NCBI GenBank assembly: GCA_019314185.1 | Contig: JAFCZU010000022.1 | Span: forward strand, 1-16,658 | Source: Deltaproteobacteria bacterium | GTDB lineage: Bacteria > Desulfobacterota > Desulfobacteria > Desulfobacterales > ETH-SRB1 | Direction of reading: 5' to 3' | Length of the DNA stretch: 16,658 nucleotides | In this document: positions 1-16,658 of the stretch, in pieces | Numbering within the stretch: position 1 is the stretch's first letter | Layout: the number at the start of each line of letters is the position of its first letter | Notes under the pieces: generated by a model | Told to the model about the DNA's origin: nothing | The model's database searches: none | The model's input: only the letters and a program-made list of their open reading frames with translations | Position numbers and translations under genes: made by a program

Positions 1-1089
1 GAGCTGATCTGGAAAGTCTCCGGTTAACACGGTATTTACATTTTCTTTAGCAAGCTTTGCTGCAAAATAAGACGGGATAGCAGAAGTGTCTGCAAAAGGG
101 GCATCGTGGTGCCAGACAATTTTTTCAAGCAGTTGGGGGAAATCATCGTCGACTTTTAAGATAGTGGTGATGTGGTCAAGGCACATATGATCCGCCACTA
201 TTTTTGCATCCCCGATTTCGTTATATCGCTCTTCTTCAAAGCCCGCGGTAAATACTTTAAAAGGTACCTGGTTCAACTTATGCATGACTGCCACGACACC
301 ACTGGTATCAAGACCGCCGCTGAGAAAAGCGCCGCACTCGGGGTGTCTTTTCAGTCGCCGTGAAACCGCTGTTTCAAAAACATCGAGGAATTTTTTCTTA
401 TAATAGGCTTCAGGCTTATTAGGCTGATCTTGTCTATAGCTGAACTTCCAATAGGCTTGTTCCGTAATTTCCCCATCCTGGCAAATTAGCAAATGCCCGG
501 GTCTGACTTGTTTAATCGACTCAAACAAGGTGTCAGGATTGGGGACATAACCATAGGACAAAAAGTTATTCAATGCCCGAAAATTTACCGATTTTCCGTA
601 GAGCTTAGATGCGAGAATAGCTTTGATTTCTGAGGCAAATATGATGATATTGCTCAGCTTGAGGTAAAAGAGTGGCTTAACACCAAACCGGTCTCTTGCA
701 AGCAATAGCCGATTTTGTTCACCGTCCCAAATTGCTATGGAATAGGAGCCGTCAATTTGATTCAGGAATTCCAGGCCCCTTTGCCGGTATTCTTGCAAGA
801 CAATTTGTGCATCCGAAATTGCTTTATCTTTTGACTCATGGGTGTTTAAAGAATGAAAAACTTCCCCATCCAATATAACCCATAAATTTCTTGAACTATC
901 ACAGGCCATTACTTGGGATCTATCTTCTTGTTGATGATATCTGACCCCTAGAACACTATCTGGCTTAACAGCTTCAACGTGACAATGAAGTGCCCGGTGC
1001 TTTAACGTATCAAGCATCTTCCGAACAAGCATTTGTTTATCCATGTTCAGAGATGTTTTTGAATATTGAATTCCAGCTATTCCGCCCAT
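1..1089 (-). CDS. Asparagine-synthetase-like protein with degenerate glutaminase site (partial)
   Basis: The frame is open from an ATG at 1089 to the window edge, giving the N-terminal 363 residues of a protein normally about 600 long. Residues 1-200 match the class II glutamine amidotransferase fold (LLLARDRFGVKPLFY region at about 126-142). Residues from about 225 match the asparagine synthetase ATP-pyrophosphatase domain, with the P-loop SGGLDTS at 257-263. The family begins Met-Cys-Gly-Ile, and that Cys2 is the glutaminase nucleophile. Here the sequence reads MGGIAGI, so the nucleophile is Gly. The usual NGE motif is DGE at 74-76, and the usual GDGGDE or GEGSDE motif of the synthetase site reads GDFPDQ at 357-362. 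It probably does not hydrolyse glutamine; it may use ammonia or another amine, or make a different amide on a glycan. Such genes are common at the end of exopolysaccharide loci. It starts 13 nt after the O-antigen ligase stop, so it is probably co-transcribed. Fold assignment is secure; substrate unknown. Confidence 0.9.
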   Translation of the reverse strand, partial: MGGIAGIQYSKTSLNMDKQMLVRKMLDTLKHRALHCHVEAVKPDSVLGVRYHQQEDRSQVMACDSSRNLWVILDGEVFHSLNTHESKDKAISDAQIVLQEYRQRGLEFLNQIDGSYSIAIWDGEQNRLLLARDRFGVKPLFYLKLSNIIIFASEIKAILASKLYGKSVNFRALNNFLSYGYVPNPDTLFESIKQVRPGHLLICQDGEITEQAYWKFSYRQDQPNKPEAYYKKKFLDVFETAVSRRLKRHPECGAFLSGGLDTSGVVAVMHKLNQVPFKVFTAGFEEERYNEIGDAKIVADHMCLDHITTILKVDDDFPQLLEKIVWHHDAPFADTSAIPSYFAAKLAKENVNTVLTGDFPDQL

Positions 1090-1102: not shown

Positions 1103-2413
1103 TCAATTAGTTTCTTTCTCAGATGTTACGTCCGCAGTATCTACCAATTTCCGCGTAGCATTTTCAAGGCATATAGGAAGAGCAAAAAGCATCCAGGTTA
1201 TTTCATTATACAAATAGCTATGGCTCGTCATGCCGCCCAGCAGATAGATCAAGAGTGAAGTGGTAAGTGATATTGCAAAAAGCGATATCTCCTGCTCGTA
1301 TGGCGTTCCCTTGATCATCCGGCGGATGCGTCTGAGCTGAAAGAAAGCTTCTATAATAATTACCATGAATAATATTATCCCAATAATTCCGATTTCGGTG
1401 TAACATAAGACATACGTATTGTGTGCATCCCTTCCCGGATTGCGAGGATCGTAGTATGGCACAATATTTTGAAAATTTTTGACACCTATGCCGAGGGGAT
1501 GGTCCTTAAAGATTTGTACCGAAGCCTTCCAAAAGTCTATCCGGCTTAACTTCTCTACTTGATTTTCATTAGTGATGGATTCAAGTTGCTTAGCCTCGTC
1601 ACCTATCGTGTCCATCCGTTCCAGAAAATAGACATCGGAAAGCATGAAAAACAGAATAGCCCCTAAAGCGACACACAGGTAGATTCGTTTTCGGGATTTC
1701 CTGGGTGCACTCAAAAGAACATAAGGGCATGCCAAGGCCATACCCAAAAAGGCTGCACGGGACTGGGTCAAGACTATTGTGTCCAACATGGCTGCAATGG
1801 CTATTACATAGAACACTTTTTTCCACCACGCTGCCTTAACCAGTTGAAAACCAAGTAAGGTTATCCCAAAAGCCATAAACAAAGCAAATGCATTTGCCTC
1901 ACGGAAATCAATGCCCCCCATATTTTCCAATCTGCCGGCGGAAAACTGACCGATATCATGAGCCTGGTAGGCCAGAAAGATGGCTCCCAGTATATAACCC
2001 AATATCAAGAGCTTAAAGCCGTCCAAAGTATGCACAACACGAAGCAAGAAGAAAATAAATATAAACATTTTTGTAATCTTTTCCAGCGCCATCCAACTTG
2101 CCGCATGCATTCCGACGCCAAAAACAATAGATACAAACCATGCTGTTCCCAGAAACAAATAGAGTTGTATCTCCCTTCTTGAAATGTTCCAATTAAGTTT
2201 ATCCCTGTGCAGAAGGCACCCTATAGTCAGGAAGATTACGGCCACCAAAGACGGTCTACTAATGTACACTGATATTGATTTGCACCACCATAGGTTGGGA
2301 TTGTAAAACAGGTATACAGACAGGTAACCCAGAATCCCTATAATTGGATTTAATAAAGCACCAACAAAGAGAGTGGCGAACAAAACTGATATAAATAGCG
2401 TCGTGATTCCCAT
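1103..2413 (-). CDS. O-antigen ligase/polymerase family membrane protein (Wzy_C type)
   Basis: This 436-residue, very hydrophobic protein has about 10-12 predicted membrane segments. The family signature lies in the second half: TQSRAAFLG at 216-224, a large extracytoplasmic loop with DHPLGIGVKNF at 304-314, and DAHNTYVLCYTEIGIIG at 329-345, with His331-Asn332 in the characteristic position. This is the layout of the O-antigen ligase / Wzy_C family (WaaL, Wzy and the exosortase-associated O-ligase-like proteins). These transfer or polymerise undecaprenyl-linked glycans on the periplasmic face of the inner membrane. With a Wzx-type flippase in the same locus, a polymerase role is likely, but ligase and polymerase cannot be separated by sequence alone. 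The ATG at 2413 has no clear Shine-Dalgarno sequence. A 115-nt gap separates it from the transglutaminase-like gene, and I see no clear terminator there. Confidence 0.88.
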   Translation of the reverse strand: MGITTLFISVLFATLFVGALLNPIIGILGYLSVYLFYNPNLWWCKSISVYISRPSLVAVIFLTIGCLLHRDKLNWNISRREIQLYLFLGTAWFVSIVFGVGMHAASWMALEKITKMFIFIFFLLRVVHTLDGFKLLILGYILGAIFLAYQAHDIGQFSAGRLENMGGIDFREANAFALFMAFGITLLGFQLVKAAWWKKVFYVIAIAAMLDTIVLTQSRAAFLGMALACPYVLLSAPRKSRKRIYLCVALGAILFFMLSDVYFLERMDTIGDEAKQLESITNENQVEKLSRIDFWKASVQIFKDHPLGIGVKNFQNIVPYYDPRNPGRDAHNTYVLCYTEIGIIGIILFMVIIIEAFFQLRRIRRMIKGTPYEQEISLFAISLTTSLLIYLLGGMTSHSYLYNEITWMLFALPICLENATRKLVDTADVTSEKETN

Positions 2414-5770: not shown

Positions 5771-6982
5771 TCATTTGTTTGTCAAATTCATGCACAATTG
5801 ACGAAATTCTTCTGCCTTATTGGCCCATGAAAAGTTCTGTGCTCTCTTGTAACCTGCCTGTCCCATACGTTCGGCTAATTCCTTGTTGCTGAGGAGCTGA
5901 ATAGCAGCCTTGGCAATATCTTCAACCGAATTTCCATCAACTAAAATGCCTGTCTCTCCGTCAGCAACGGCATCCGGAACCCCGCCTGCCTTTCCCCCGA
6001 TTACCGGTTTTCCACATGCGTTTGCCTCCAGAAAAACAAGACCAAAACCTTCTGTATCGCCATTTGGAAGGAATCTATTGGGCATGATAAATACATCGCA
6101 AGACCTGTAGTATCGAGGAAGGTCTTCCCATGGAACATGTCCAACAAAAACCACTTTATCTTCCACCCCAAAATCCTTTACAAGCGTTTTTAACGTTTCC
6201 AGGTAGCCCCCCCTACCGACAACAAGATACACAACATTATGGGTAGCCCTAAGGATTAGGGGCAACGCTTCGATTACCTTATCATGGCCTTTCCTTTCCT
6301 CCACCCTGGCAATCGTGAGAAGCACTTTCTTTCCCTCTACGCCGTGTCGGCATAGGATTTCCGGATCTTTTGTTCCAGGAGAAAATCGTTCCAGGTTTAC
6401 CCCGTTTGTGATTAGATGTATTCTTTCTGGTTTGACTCTTCTGCGAATTAGTTCGGACCGTGTAAACGAACTCACGGCAATCACTGCCTCTGCCCTGCGC
6501 AAAGCGAACTTTGAACTTATGCTGTATAAAAATGAGTCTGGGCTGGTGGTAACCTCCTCACCATGAATATAGTGGATAATGGGTATGTTTCGTTTTCGTC
6601 TCAAATATTCACCCAGCCATGAAAGACCCCAAAGATCCCCTAAACAGACGATGTCAGCGCCTGTTGTGTCTATCAGTCTCAGGACTTCCTTAGCCACTAT
6701 CCTATATAGTAGAAAATCTTCGCATATCAGGCGTAAAACTGAAACAAAAAGATTTTTAGGCGCAGACTCAACAAGAGGTTGAAGGAGTTCAATCCTTTGC
6801 ACTTCGAATGGCTGGTGTAAATCAGACTCTCTCCACCCTTTAATTTCTTGACCGTCCAAATAATAACGCCATGGAGCCAGTATCACTATTTCATCTTTAA
6901 GATAGCGGCATATGTTCTCATATACAACAGGTGCTCCCCCAACCATGGGCGGTACGTGACTGGCAATCAAGAGTATCTTCAT
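5771..6982 (-). CDS. Glycosyltransferase family 4 (GT-B fold)
   Basis: This 403-residue protein is a canonical GT4 retaining glycosyltransferase. The N-domain has the glycine-rich acceptor loop PPMVGGAP (11-18). The domain boundary is at NGVNLERFSP (193-202), and the C-domain starts LLTIARVEERKGHDKVIEAL (221-240). The E-x7-E motif that binds the nucleotide-sugar phosphates is intact (Glu311 in DTEGFG to Glu319 in FLEA), followed by GKPVIGGKAGGVPDAV (324-339). Its ATG overlaps the stop of the preceding toroid gene as ATGA (6979-6982), so the two are translationally coupled. It presumably adds a sugar to the lipid-linked repeat unit; the specific sugar is not readable from sequence. Confidence 0.93.
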   Translation of the reverse strand: MKILLIASHVPPMVGGAPVVYENICRYLKDEIVILAPWRYYLDGQEIKGWRESDLHQPFEVQRIELLQPLVESAPKNLFVSVLRLICEDFLLYRIVAKEVLRLIDTTGADIVCLGDLWGLSWLGEYLRRKRNIPIIHYIHGEEVTTSPDSFLYSISSKFALRRAEAVIAVSSFTRSELIRRRVKPERIHLITNGVNLERFSPGTKDPEILCRHGVEGKKVLLTIARVEERKGHDKVIEALPLILRATHNVVYLVVGRGGYLETLKTLVKDFGVEDKVVFVGHVPWEDLPRYYRSCDVFIMPNRFLPNGDTEGFGLVFLEANACGKPVIGGKAGGVPDAVADGETGILVDGNSVEDIAKAAIQLLSNKELAERMGQAGYKRAQNFSWANKAEEFRQLCMNLTNK

Positions 6983-9215: not shown

Positions 9216-10436
9216 TTATTCCTTCTGCAAAGCTGCAGCTAAGTAAGCTCCACCTTGCATAGACAGTTGCTTCAATTCGGGCATTCGCCTCCTGAGAGAT
9301 TCAACGATGGTTTCCCTGTTTGAAACTAGGGAATTAAAACGGTCAATGAGATTTTCCAGTGTTATCGACCTTCCATCTATGACATAATCCGCGTGACCGT
9401 AAGCCTGCTGAAGAATCCCGAAGGCCTTTTTACTATAAGCTATCGCTATGGTAGGAACATTACTAGATAAAGATGCAATTGTTGAATGTGTTCTGTAGCC
9501 GATGAAATAATCACACTGACTGATCGCATCCTTGATTTCGTCTGCCTGCATATCGTAGTCAGCGGCCATTAAAACACTATTTTTTCGGTTGACGCTTCTC
9601 ATCACGTTTCTACACGCTATATAATCATCGTTTCCTTCATACATCACATGAGGCACCAAGTATACTGTAGCATTCAAGCTATCAATTGCATGTTGAACAA
9701 ATTGCGTCATGATCTGCTCATATGTCTTTCTTTCAGTGCCCAGGAAGCCAGATCTAAGTGCGGAGATACCAAGTCCTATCACGCAGTTTGATGGGCCGGA
9801 GGCTGTCAATGCGCTACGCTCAGTCCTTCTACCTTTTAGCACAAAGGCTGGATCGGCGACCAGGCGAACATTGTCGGTTATGCCTATGCTCTCTAAGTAG
9901 TCCTGTGACCAAGACTCGCGGACAGTTATGAGAGTCGATTTCGAAAGCACTTCTGTAGCTATCCGCCGTAAATCCTCGTTGTTGAAAGGGCCGATTGAGG
10001 CGCCCCAAACTACCGTGGCTTTCCCAAGATATTGAGCATATTGCAGACAGTTAAGATTTTCGGTTGGTAGCTCTAGTCCATAACTTTCAGTGAAATTATC
10101 GCCTCCCACAGCTACCACTAAGTCTGCCTTGGAGTAGTATGTGTGCATATTCCTCTGCCAGTATAGACCTTCAGGGTATCCTGGTGGAAGGCCGAGACGG
10201 TGCTTGATAGATGATAATACCGTGTGTACTGTCCGGCGATAGAGCAGTGGAACAAATCTGACAGGAACTTCCCATGTGTCAACAATAGAAGAGTCATATT
10301 GCATCCTTTCGGAATCCATAAGAACTATAAAAGAGGCGTCTTGGAGGTACCTCCTAATGACCAATGCTGAGCACCTAACTATGGCCTCACAACCCCGATT
10401 CTTGCATGTATCATGCCCTATGAAAAGAACTTTCAT
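9216..10436 (-). CDS. Polysaccharide pyruvyl transferase family protein
   Basis: This 406-residue protein matches the polysaccharide pyruvyl transferase family (CsaB/WcaK type), whose members transfer a ketal pyruvate from phosphoenolpyruvate to a sugar, giving the polymer negative charge. Visible family features are the N-terminal NRGCEAIV segment (13-20), VAVGGDNF (108-115), WGASIGPF (144-151), TVRESWS (171-177), DPAF (195-198) and GYRTHSTIASL (313-323), the Arg-x-His motif near the catalytic region, followed by VPTIAIAYSKKAFG. It is a cytoplasmic protein with no signal sequence. An AGGTGG ribosome site precedes the ATG at 10436. It lies two genes downstream of an FrhB-type relic, a common partner of pyruvyl transferase genes in such loci. 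Some family members have other roles, so the exact reaction is not certain. Confidence 0.86.
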   Translation of the reverse strand: MKVLFIGHDTCKNRGCEAIVRCSALVIRRYLQDASFIVLMDSERMQYDSSIVDTWEVPVRFVPLLYRRTVHTVLSSIKHRLGLPPGYPEGLYWQRNMHTYYSKADLVVAVGGDNFTESYGLELPTENLNCLQYAQYLGKATVVWGASIGPFNNEDLRRIATEVLSKSTLITVRESWSQDYLESIGITDNVRLVADPAFVLKGRRTERSALTASGPSNCVIGLGISALRSGFLGTERKTYEQIMTQFVQHAIDSLNATVYLVPHVMYEGNDDYIACRNVMRSVNRKNSVLMAADYDMQADEIKDAISQCDYFIGYRTHSTIASLSSNVPTIAIAYSKKAFGILQQAYGHADYVIDGRSITLENLIDRFNSLVSNRETIVESLRRRMPELKQLSMQGGAYLAAALQKE

Positions 10437-13456: not shown

Positions 13457-14965
13457 TCAGGAAAGTAATGCATTCCTAATATAGGCTCTTTCTGTTTTGT
13501 CAAACATAGTGAAAAAACTAATCGGTATAAATAATATGACTTGTAAAAATGAAATGGATAATATGTTGATGTATGCTGGCTTTAAAAAATCTTTTAGCAG
13601 ATAGAAATATGCTAATATAGGCAACAGCGTCTTGGCCGCTGTCATGAATATAGTTTTAAAGTAATATTCATAAAGCGATAACTTAATTACGCGGCATGTG
13701 TAAACAGGTTGTATCAGAAGCTTGAAAATAAGCATTTCAATCATCGTACCCATTGCTACGCCATAAATACCATAATATTTAACTAAAATAATGCTTAATA
13801 TAAGATTCAGTACTCCTTCACAGGTATTGGAAACCGCATAATATTTATGCTTGGATATACCATATAAAAGGCTTATGCTTGGGGTCTGCATTAATCCAAC
13901 TGTCACTCCTACCGTTAAGATGGCTATGACATTGTAACTATCGACGTAATCAAGTCCCATCCATCGTATTATAAATGGCTTACCGTAATAAAGGAAACTG
14001 GCTCCAACGAAAACCGAAAGAAATGTGCTAATCTTTGTAGCCTGCAGAAACCATTTTTTAATGGATTTAAAGTCCCCGCGCCCTTCGAATTGGCTGTATA
14101 CCGGCGACATAAACCCTATTGCACTCAACATGAACTGTACAAAATATTCAATTAGCCGGGCTCCAATTGTGTAATGAGTGACAAAGCTTAAATTGAGGAA
14201 GTAGCCAACAACAAACTCGTCTACCTTAAAGCGCAAGAGATCCGCGACTTGGGATATAAAGGTAAAAGAACTATAATTAAAAAGCTGCTTAATCCTGCTT
14301 GCTTTAAAAAGAGACGTGTTTATTTTAATTTGTGGAAAGTTAGACTTGACAAAATAGAAATTGATGAGATAGCCGATTACCTGCACTAAAAATGTTATCC
14401 ATGCAAGTGCAAGTAGCCCGTAGCCATTTGTAATGAAATAAACAATCAGAACGGTTCGAATAATTAACTTGAAAAAATCTGTATAGGCGATGAGGTCATG
14501 CCTAAGTTTCGCAAATAGAATACCTGTAAAAACCCTCATCGGAAATCCTAATGCAACATTTCCACCTAAAATTAGTACAATTTTCCTAAATAATGCTGCT
14601 TCGGCATAGTCTTTTATGAAAACGCCACAAAACACTGCCGCAGCACATGAAAACAGGAAAGCTATAATGCCTATGATTAAGAAAAGTGCCAATGCGGTGT
14701 TCAATACGATATTTATTTCATATGGATTTTTCTGCCCATATGCTCGTGAGATAAATCTTGAAACAGCAGAGGAAAGCCCCAGATCCAGAAAACCGTAATA
14801 TCCTATAAAAATACCCACAAGACTCCAGAATCCGTACAATCTATCTCCAAGAGAATGGATCAAGAAAGGCATCATATAGAAGGAAACAGCAATATTTGAT
14901 GCCAGTAAGGTGACTCTGAAAGCCGAACTAGCCATGAGTCTTTTTAAAATATTAATTGAGTCCAT
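13457..14965 (-). CDS. Wzx-type polysaccharide flippase (MOP superfamily)
   Basis: This 502-residue protein has about 12-14 membrane segments and the family start: a short N-terminal tail, then a first helix leading to YMMPFLIHSLGDRLYGFWSL, and GFLDLGLSSAVSRFISRAYG in the next loop. This is typical of polysaccharide biosynthesis proteins of the RfbX/Wzx group, which flip undecaprenyl-pyrophosphate-linked repeat units from the cytoplasmic to the periplasmic face of the inner membrane. Together with the Wzy_C-type protein at the other end of the locus it points to a Wzx/Wzy-dependent pathway. The ATG at 14965 has no strong ribosome site. The gene is separated by about 195 nt from the FemAB-like gene and 243 nt from the methyltransferase, so it may be its own transcription unit. 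It is more AT-rich and Ile/Phe-rich than its neighbours. Confidence 0.92.
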   Translation of the reverse strand: MDSINILKRLMASSAFRVTLLASNIAVSFYMMPFLIHSLGDRLYGFWSLVGIFIGYYGFLDLGLSSAVSRFISRAYGQKNPYEINIVLNTALALFLIIGIIAFLFSCAAAVFCGVFIKDYAEAALFRKIVLILGGNVALGFPMRVFTGILFAKLRHDLIAYTDFFKLIIRTVLIVYFITNGYGLLALAWITFLVQVIGYLINFYFVKSNFPQIKINTSLFKASRIKQLFNYSSFTFISQVADLLRFKVDEFVVGYFLNLSFVTHYTIGARLIEYFVQFMLSAIGFMSPVYSQFEGRGDFKSIKKWFLQATKISTFLSVFVGASFLYYGKPFIIRWMGLDYVDSYNVIAILTVGVTVGLMQTPSISLLYGISKHKYYAVSNTCEGVLNLILSIILVKYYGIYGVAMGTMIEMLIFKLLIQPVYTCRVIKLSLYEYYFKTIFMTAAKTLLPILAYFYLLKDFLKPAYINILSISFLQVILFIPISFFTMFDKTERAYIRNALLS

Positions 14966-15160: not shown

Positions 15161-16201
15161 TCACATTTTTTTTAATAACCACGCTGCAAGTTTTGACTGT
15201 ATACCTACATTTTCCAACGTCCACGTTATACATCGTATCTGCTTAGATCCATAGGAAGATTTAAAAAAGTACAAGCCATGAGCCGGATGTCCCTTTAAGT
15301 TTGAATTCGCAGGAACTCCTCCCAAATTAAGAATCTTATATCCATCATTTCGTAAACGGCGCATCATCTCCCAAACAAGAAATTGCGACGCCCCGATTTG
15401 AAATCCCTCAGGTGAAGAACCGGCCCTAGTATAGTATGCAGAACAAGTATCACAGTGCAAGAAAACCCCGGCAATGGGGTCGTCAGTCATAGTGGCAAAA
15501 AAAAGACGCCCATAACCTGGCTTCAGATATTGGTTTACTACATAAGAAATGTATTGATCCGAACCAATATCATAGTCTTCCCCTCGCTGCCGTCGTCTGT
15601 CGCGGGACGATGTCTGAAGTCGAATCAAATTTCGCAGCCCATTTTCTGTATTGTCCTCGAACACCACCAATTCCTTTTTTTTTGTGAGCTTTTTGAGATT
15701 GCGTTTACGCATATGATGCATTGCATCTATAAGTTCATCATCTGTTCTATCCAATTGTATCAGAAACTCTATTCGGTGGTGTGGTATCATGCCAAGCGTG
15801 TCTAAGCCTGTTGAGCTTATGAGGGCATCCTCTGATCCGAATTTAACTGCCGTTACATGAAGCTTTTTGCCAAATTGCACAATACGACTTGAAAAGTCAT
15901 TCAAGATATCTTTGGCCCCATTTATTACAATTGGGTGAGTTCGGAATTCGAGGTTGCGAAAAAGCACGCGAAGAGGAGTGCGGTTCCAGGGACTTGAAAG
16001 AAACCCCAAAGCGATACCTTGACACTTGCCAGATCCGTCAACATAGCGAAAGTACAAAGGTTTTTGGCCCTCTGACGCGGTAATATGGGCAAACGCCGTG
16101 CTGAGATAGAATGACCCACTCAAAGAATGGCGGATTTCCTCCCAGTCTCTTGGGGCAACAGTGGGGCTGACTGCTACAGTATGATCAAATGCTATGGACA
16201 T
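15161..16201 (-). CDS. FemAB-like GNAT acyltransferase of the polysaccharide locus
   Basis: This 346-residue protein is related to FemAB peptidyltransferases and the CelD/BcsL-type GNAT proteins found in exopolysaccharide and exosortase-associated loci. Two GNAT-like halves are visible. The second (about 145-325) carries the basic helix HMRKRNLKKLTKKKEL (163-178), GYGRLFFATMTDDPIAGVFL (229-248), a YYTRAGSS segment (256-263), and the conserved GLYFFKSSYGS (309-319) near the acyl-donor site. The family transfers aminoacyl or acyl groups; the substrate here is unknown, and acylation of a repeat-unit sugar is a reasonable guess. There is no signal peptide or membrane span. GAGG 6 nt upstream supports the ATG at 16201. 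The 5' leader holds several inverted repeats. Confidence 0.8.
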   Translation of the reverse strand: MSIAFDHTVAVSPTVAPRDWEEIRHSLSGSFYLSTAFAHITASEGQKPLYFRYVDGSGKCQGIALGFLSSPWNRTPLRVLFRNLEFRTHPIVINGAKDILNDFSSRIVQFGKKLHVTAVKFGSEDALISSTGLDTLGMIPHHRIEFLIQLDRTDDELIDAMHHMRKRNLKKLTKKKELVVFEDNTENGLRNLIRLQTSSRDRRRQRGEDYDIGSDQYISYVVNQYLKPGYGRLFFATMTDDPIAGVFLHCDTCSAYYTRAGSSPEGFQIGASQFLVWEMMRRLRNDGYKILNLGGVPANSNLKGHPAHGLYFFKSSYGSKQIRCITWTLENVGIQSKLAAWLLKKM

Positions 16202-16307: not shown

Positions 16308-16322
16308 GCAGGTCTTACCTGC
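16308..16322 (-). terminator. Hairpin at the end of the rhodanese-like gene
   Basis: GCAGGT-AAG-ACCTGC on the minus strand is a perfect 6-bp stem overlapping the final TAA (16315-16317), followed by ATTTGGATTT. The tail is only partly T-rich, so it is a weak intrinsic terminator candidate for the rhodanese-like gene. Confidence 0.35.
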
Positions 16323-16658
16323 CACTCCTTGGAACTCCATGCTTATTCATTTTGACTCGCGGGAAAACGTACTTCATTGAATAGATACCACTGTATATGG
16401 CCATTATATTCCGCACGCCTTTCTTCATCCACTTAACAGCCACCTGACTGCTGGCCTGCTCGGCGCCTCATTTACAGAATAGGAGAATCATTTTGGTCTT
16501 GCTTAGTTTCTTCATCTTCCTGATGATAGATGGATTCATAGACTGGCCACTCCGTATGTAAAATGGCCCCAATATTCCGCAATCGATTACTTCGTCCCCC
16601 AACCCGACGACAATAGCGCGACCTGTTTTATATAGGTTTAGGGCATCCTCGGCAGAAA
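16315..16658 (-). CDS. Rhodanese-like protein with in-frame TGA (selenoprotein candidate or pseudogene; partial)
   Basis: The frame entering from the right edge reads SAEDALNLYKTGRAIVVGLG, then an LLFCK segment and a TGA at 16468-16470. It continues without a shift as GAEQASSQVAVKWMKKG, VRNIMAIYSGI and ends at TAA 16315. This is a rhodanese (sulfurtransferase) domain: beta strand, the Cys loop, then the helix and the N-[IV]-x-[AV]-L-x-G-G-like strand. From memory, one subgroup has C-x-C-P-N-E at the active loop; aligned to it, the TGA falls on the second Cys. Either selenocysteine is inserted (C-x-U) or a TGC/TGT codon mutated to a stop. The usual Asp-x-Arg of the first strand is replaced (VGLGDE), which favours decay or altered function. 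The N-terminus is outside the window. Confidence 0.55.
16437..16458 (-). promoter_or_regulatory. Stem-loop downstream of the in-frame TGA (SECIS candidate)
   Basis: Nine bases after the TGA, CAG-[G]-CCA pairs with TGGCTG (6 bp with one bulged G) around a 9-nt loop GCAGTCAGG. Bacterial SECIS elements lie immediately 3' of the UGA, with a bulged stem and a G-containing apical loop, so placement and size fit. The sequence does not match the E. coli loop closely, and a stem this short arises often by chance. Confidence 0.25.

Follow-up and report, generated by a model that had tools for sequence, protein, structure and literature searches.

The window, that is, the whole stretch of 16,658 nucleotides analysed here, carries an exopolysaccharide gene cluster, within which, at the window's right-hand edge, sits the 3' part of a rhodanese-like gene containing a single in-frame TGA. 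The genes and features that bear on the reading of this codon are the following:

1..1089, minus strand: XrtA/PEP-CTERM-type amidotransferase, partial at the window edge (best match TIGR03108, under cut-off)
1103..2413, minus strand: O-antigen ligase-like protein of the exosortase A-associated type (TIGR03097, under cut-off)
5771..6982, minus strand: GT4 glycosyltransferase (62% to Deferrisoma camini), which served to find the nearest genomes
9216..10436, minus strand: polysaccharide pyruvyl transferase-like protein (domain match)
12135-11780, minus strand: FrhB-like/4Fe-4S gene, frameshifted and truncated, next to the gene at 11780-10551 (weak Pfam matches, 20.3-21.1 bits)
13457..14965, minus strand: Wzx-type flippase (profile/domain match)
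15161..16201, minus strand: GNAT/FemAB-like protein, the next gene downstream, 113 bases past the TAA of the rhodanese-like gene (PF13480, PF02388)
16315..16656, minus strand: 3' part of the rhodanese-like, very likely selenoprotein, gene (translation and profile scores)
16435..16460, minus strand: SECIS-like hairpin, +11 to +36 from the U of UGA (predicted fold)
16468..16470, minus strand: in-frame TGA, candidate selenocysteine (Sec) codon, codon 63, second position of the C-x-U loop (TGA column in relatives)
16474..16476, minus strand: loop Cys, codon 61 (alignments with relatives)

The rhodanese-like frame runs from 16656 to 16315 and comprises 113 codons, counting the candidate Sec, before ending at the TAA at 16317-16315; its 5' end lies past the window edge, with the start codon out of view. 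The original prediction held that translation straight through TGA 16468-16470 restores rhodanese homology without a frameshift, and this is borne out: the frame needs no frameshift, the 113 codons hold no further stop, and a profile of 30 relatives (Sec scored as X, window excluded) gives 13.6 bits for the part before the TGA alone and 21.1 bits for the part after it alone. Over the entire protein the same profile scores 47.2 bits, as compared with 6.9 for the best of 1000 shuffles. The Pfam Rhodanese model (PF00581) matches weakly, at 12.5 bits, under its gathering cut-off of 22.2, and the best NCBIfam match is NF041203 (rhodanese_LYCAU) at 29.8 bits and E 3.7e-7, below the cut-off of 115. 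Since TGA is the stop codon of 7 of the 11 complete neighbour genes in the window, a reassigned genetic code is unlikely.

Around the TGA the translation reads ...LLFCK-U-GAEQASS..., with a loop motif F-C-K-U-G-A-E matching C-x-U (or C-x-C). C61 aligns as the rhodanese loop Cys after the fourth strand, the position of the catalytic Cys in rhodaneses. The first strand of rhodaneses is followed by an Asp-x-Arg motif; the window protein lacks it and has VVGLG there.

The window protein, with Sec written as Cys such that TGA was not favoured, was searched against 395 genomes of the nearest relative's phylum, and at E<=0.1 it gave 82 matches, which come from 74 genomes. Among the best 30 matches with a locus, 17 have a single TGA as their sole stop, and 16 are C-x-U at the window's codon; 27 of the other 52 matches supplied a further 14 of this kind. 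In total, 30 of 57 loci are rhodaneses with TGA at exactly the window's codon in a C-x-U loop, a proportion which is not a frequency, as the 27 extra loci were chosen mostly for a single TGA. The earlier proposal that the TGA stands where C-x-C-type loops have their second Cys is thereby supported. A motif pattern returned 39 frames (27 with U, three with C, three with A, two with G, and one each with R, D, H and W), several of those without U being out-of-frame noise; L095, L099 and L103 were missed by the pattern and were added to the CxU set by their motifs. Other residues at the Sec column are Cys, in L096, L104 and L171, and Ala, in L100 and L101. The latter two, from the Deferrisomatia genomes G267 and G294, read Y-C-S-A-E-D-E and Y-C-S-A-D-G-E and are without the second redox residue. 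In the rhodanese L108 (G320:C42) the in-frame TGA stands elsewhere, at a Sec-like position five residues past its loop Cys (Y-C-G-G-L-A-U-P). Comparisons of dN/dS among relatives gave undefined or saturated dS in four of eight cases.

Directly downstream of the TGA the RNA is predicted to fold into a hairpin with an MFE of -13.8 kcal/mol, its core spanning +13 to +34 and the MFE structure extending it by two pairs (+11, +12). The base that bulges out is G16 (16455) in the MFE structure and G15 in the centroid, and the apical pentaloop AGUCA at 16449-16445, with G23 at 16448 and U24 at 16447, is of the SelB type xGUxx. Both the anticipated stem-loop with a bulged base, its core starting 9 nt past the TGA, and the G(U) in a small apical loop, sought as a SECIS check, are thus present in the predicted fold. 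In stability as such the hairpin is not unusual, with 33 of 200 plain dinucleotide shuffles of the 53-base stretch folding as well (z -0.92). The window's best xG[TG]xx pentaloop hairpin, at -10.1 kcal/mol, compares with a mean of -10.24 in the other CxU genes (n=27) and a range of -5.7 to -14.7 kcal/mol in the eight members of the clade described below. An equally stable loop hairpin arises in 2 of 5000 synonymous resamples (0.0004) and at a fraction of 0.0014 of 4436 in-frame positions in 12 window genes, and under a looser criterion (such a loop in the MFE structure) 18 of the 30 relatives qualify, together with 2.0% of resamples (n=3000) and 0.6% of in-frame positions (n=4484), both loop criteria having been chosen after the window's fold had been seen.

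Among the 30 CxU rhodaneses, 28 have a stem of 4-7 bp with an xG[TG]xx pentaloop at a fixed place after the TGA, the exceptions being L094, with a hairpin shifted by one codon, and L095, with a 3 bp form. In the window this fixed site is unpaired (1 bp), and the loop lies one codon upstream of it, as it likewise does in L095 and L286. The supposition that absence of a hairpin at the family's fixed site means absence of a SECIS was rejected, given that loops in the clade vary over three positions one codon apart (0-based 21, 24 and 27). The excerpted text of PMC8659212 numbers the loop bases of the E. coli fdhF SECIS as G23 and U24 and its bulged base as U17; its count appears to start at the U of UGA, because it speaks of '11 nt away from UGA' and 'between 15 and 31'. 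On that count the window's loop G23 and U24 lie equally far from the UGA, and both hairpins have a bulge in the 5' arm, the difference being the bulged U17 there as opposed to G16 or G15 here.

Eight relatives (L094, L095, L097, L176, L275, L276, L277 and L286) form with the window a clade set apart by both sequence and gene context. L176 was recovered by a profile of L094, L095, L097 and the window, and a second search, with a five-row clade profile against 389 genomes of the class of G328, identified L275, L276, L277 (with its near copy L278) and L286 as clade-like by sequence. A tree of 46 rows (30 CxU rhodaneses, 15 later ones and the window), leaving out the near-identical L278 and at least 10 CxU matches (e.g., L181, L186, L188, L195, L198, L200, L221, L225, L280 and L281), places the nine rows with exopolysaccharide (EPS) context on one branch with support 100/99, a grouping seen in 0 of 500 label shuffles. 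Long branches were flagged for L094 (3.63) and the window (2.81), and the window row has 33% identity to its most similar row. Once seven long-branched rows were taken out and the window kept, the five clade rows that were left still formed a group (87/82), a result rated as neither shown nor rejected. A profile built from the eight clade members, without the window, gives the window protein 67.9 bits, as compared with 41.1 bits from one built on the other 37 rows.

All eight of these relatives carry an in-frame TGA at the window's codon; comparison with close homologs had been put forward as a check on the Sec reading, and, in place of the scattered stops that would speak for decay, the clade has TGA at this codon. 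The loss of Asp-x-Arg had been correctly noted, but its use as a sign of decay does not hold: the motif is intact in none of the eight, and the idea that its loss betokens decay was rejected on account of this common loss. The Asp is absent in L094, L176 and L277, as in the window, while in the others it is kept with the Arg replaced, giving Asp-x-His in L095, L276 and L286 and Asp-x-Met in L097 and L275. Judged by eye, all eight begin with signal-peptide-like segments. L176 (= L233:5929-6405, minus strand) and L286 each have two in-frame TGA codons, in Y-U-P-U-G and Y-U-R-U-P, respectively, apparently double-Sec U-x-U loops, and outside the clade L285 has a similar loop, Y-U-A-U-P-N-E.

The clade is sparsely distributed. 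The phylum sample of 395 genomes has it in four, the order of G452 in two out of 39, neither of them new, and the class of G328 in five out of 389, of which one was known before. Clade-like matches were seen in none of 148 genomes in the class of G001, where the best match listed scored 50.4 bits. A set of 80 GT4 loci taken from named genomes yielded no clade member in either Cys or Sec form.

Gene contexts were compared over up to about 6-8 kb per side, some being shorter at contig ends, with eight polysaccharide-gene profiles. All eight clade members and the window lie in exopolysaccharide clusters, versus 0 of 45 contexts of other rhodaneses. GT4 is present in all of the first four clade contexts (L094, L095, L097 and L176), versus no profile match in 40 others (35 CxU, four without Sec and one unverified). 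The flippase, ligase and deacetylase profiles were built wholly or partly from L160-L162, such that their matches there are circular, which is not the case for AsnB or for GT4, the latter profile having been made from the window's GT4 and 119 listed homologs. The new contexts from the class of G328 contain polysaccharide genes in five of five clade cases (four distinct) versus none of five ordinary CxU cases, a comparison which left out L281, L282 and L285; in the L286 context a flippase and a deacetylase were found and a GT4 was not. Of the earlier members, L094 is accompanied by a flippase, a ThiF-like protein, GT4, a UDP-GlcNAc 2-epimerase and a sulfotransferase; L095 by a flippase and by an exosortase A-associated decarboxylase and ligase, both over cut-off; L097 by an O-antigen ligase, a deacetylase and GT4; and L176 by a TIGR04063 XrtA-system glycosyltransferase over cut-off. 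The ThiF-type adenylyltransferase gene (L160:6551-7612, minus strand) lies just upstream of the Sec-rhodanese L094 and could encode a sulfur-transfer partner.

As to the lineage, the nearest genome searched, G168, has relatives of two of the window's neighbour genes side by side with a GT4 relative (70% and 51%), and the rhodanese-like gene itself has no match there. These matches and the similarity of the window's GT4 to that of Deferrisoma camini are a lineage hint, not a placement, because polysaccharide genes move between genomes. Of the Sec machinery, whose absence had been named earlier as a refuting condition, SelB scores over its curated cut-off in all 12 genomes of the Deferrisomatia, the nearest relative's class, versus 2 of 14 controls. 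In each of these 12 a tRNA-Sec search likewise scores 70-76 bits; 5 of 14 control genomes also exceed the gathering score of 47, and the 70-76 bit matches were relied upon because the second-best ones, near 50 bits, look like other tRNAs. SelB is also present in G001.

Selenoprotein rhodaneses of the CxU type are known; the EPS-cluster clade is new within them. In their excerpted text, PMC13188914 lists a 'Rhodanese-like domain-containing protein form 3, CxU' and PMC9312934 a 'COG0607 form 2, CxU', and other rhodanese selenoproteins appear in the lists excerpted from PMC1088965 and PMC2398784. The closest described family is NF041203, a 'rhodanese-related (seleno)protein', with which the window shares the rhodanese fold, the C-x-U loop with the TGA two codons past the loop Cys, and the hairpin that follows. 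The window's clade differs from it in its C/U-x-U-[G/A/P] motif, a Met where the second Trp close to the GG motif would stand, the want of an intact Asp-x-Arg, the shifted hairpins, and its location in exopolysaccharide clusters, versus 0 of 35 other verified CxU contexts. The name of NF045521 (rhoda_near_glyco) suggests a rhodanese near glycosyltransferase genes, and it is the window's second NCBIfam match, at 21.1 bits; however, its cut-off of 145 is far from reached, and L099, a CxU rhodanese without polysaccharide genes around it, scores 44.0 bits. With ordinary CxU rhodaneses outside such loci thus scoring higher, the window's match is generic. NF045694 (seleno_TsoB, rhodanese/DsbD fusion-like) is likewise a selenoprotein with a rhodanese domain; unlike the window's protein it is, as far as its excerpted description goes, a 572-position fusion protein with a UxxxxU motif, and it is weakly matched by L097, L099, L111 and L117 (20.7 to 29.8 bits) and not by the window. 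Among the clade proteins scanned (the window, L094, L095 and L097), none passes any NCBIfam cut-off. Searches of open-licence papers brought up no link between selenium or Sec-rhodanese genes and exopolysaccharide or XrtA/PEP-CTERM loci, and the excerpted part of PMC10599522 does not treat one.

Given the open frame, the homology on both sides of the TGA, the TGA column shared with relatives, the hairpin with its loop, the clade and the genes around it, all of them computed, it is very likely that TGA 16470-16468 codes for Sec and that the rhodanese-like gene is a selenoprotein gene, because a nonsense mutation would need to strike the family's Sec column with a matching loop after it. The main rival, itself improbable, is that a true Sec gene of the clade has recently died here, the TGA and hairpin being inherited relics of a protein no longer made or needed. 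The long branch of the window row (2.81), the unpaired state of the usual hairpin site and the start codon lying out of view are consistent with such a death, as is a broken gene in the same locus: of the two other broken genes claimed earlier, the one examined here, the FrhB-like gene at 12135-11780, is indeed frameshifted. However, a second stop or frameshift is absent from the 113 codons, the hairpin matches those of relatives in stability and seldom arises in synonymous resamples, and L094, on a still longer branch (3.63), retains the TGA, the hairpin and the locus.

It is quite improbable that the gene is instead a pseudogene of a Cys-type rhodanese. A single third-base change from TGC or TGT to TGA would suffice for this, and the neighbouring gene is broken; yet a single base change would turn 33 of the 112 sense codons into a stop, and the TGA occurs at the very column where 30 relatives and all eight clade members have it, with a SelB-type loop hairpin after it, while neither a Cys nor a Sec form of the clade turned up in the 80 GT4 loci. 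A one-base assembly or sequencing error, conceivable in a metagenome contig that is a single piece of 20,771 bases, would have to fall on the family's Sec column and is very improbable. That the TGA is the real stop of a shortened product, or is read as Trp or Cys by a general suppressor, has nothing specific in its favour and is very improbable too, with homology continuing past it (21.1 bits alone) and TGA ending 7 of the 11 complete neighbour genes.

Under the favoured Sec-coding reading, SelB and tRNA-Sec would insert Sec at UGA 16470-16468 under the direction of the hairpin downstream of it. The product would be a rhodanese-fold protein with a C-x-U loop, of a clade lodged inside exopolysaccharide (Wzx/Wzy, partly XrtA/PEP-CTERM) clusters, and its loop Cys and the Sec two residues on could form a redox (selenenylsulfide) or a sulfur-transfer pair. 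Its site of action is probably the envelope, close to polysaccharide assembly, because the relatives begin with signal-peptide-like segments, from which export of the window's copy might be extrapolated. A redox role is slightly preferred to classical sulfur transfer, the odds being barely above even, because Asp-x-Arg is lost and U-x-U forms occur (L176 and L286, and L285 outside the clade); the ThiF-like gene beside L094 runs counter to this lean. More broadly, Thermodesulfobacteriota exopolysaccharide clusters may carry a dedicated exported C-x-U/U-x-U rhodanese-fold selenoenzyme, performing selenenylsulfide or diselenide chemistry on the extracellular matrix or its builder proteins, a proposal that could equally well prove right or wrong. 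If true, this would be a selenoprotein clade bound to polysaccharide assembly. The clade ties selenium use to exopolysaccharide (partly XrtA/PEP-CTERM) loci, and it supplies eight more genes on which the idea can be tested, among them two whose active loop holds a pair of TGA codons.

A gene caller taking TGA as a stop would presumably cut such a gene at that codon, and this could explain why the read-through protein, searched against 5.8 billion proteins among candidates of similar length only, returned four candidates and none at E<=10. Viral contigs gave 28 pattern matches and no relative of the read-through protein, phages a single 34-bit match at E 1, and plasmids no homolog. In the window no Rfam family reaches its gathering score. 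A single-sequence AlphaFold model (pLDDT 59) matched nothing in the PDB at E<=0.001, and the 50 entries listed included no rhodanese, so that the model speaks neither for nor against the reading; by sequence the PDB gives weak matches only, two rhodaneses among them at E 0.34 and 1.1. A scan of contigs from genomes with the FemAB-like neighbour protein as query gave no relative. This FemAB/GNAT-like protein (15161-16201) itself belongs to a rare family, with four matches, including itself, at E<=0.001 among 1670 candidates from the 5.8 billion proteins.
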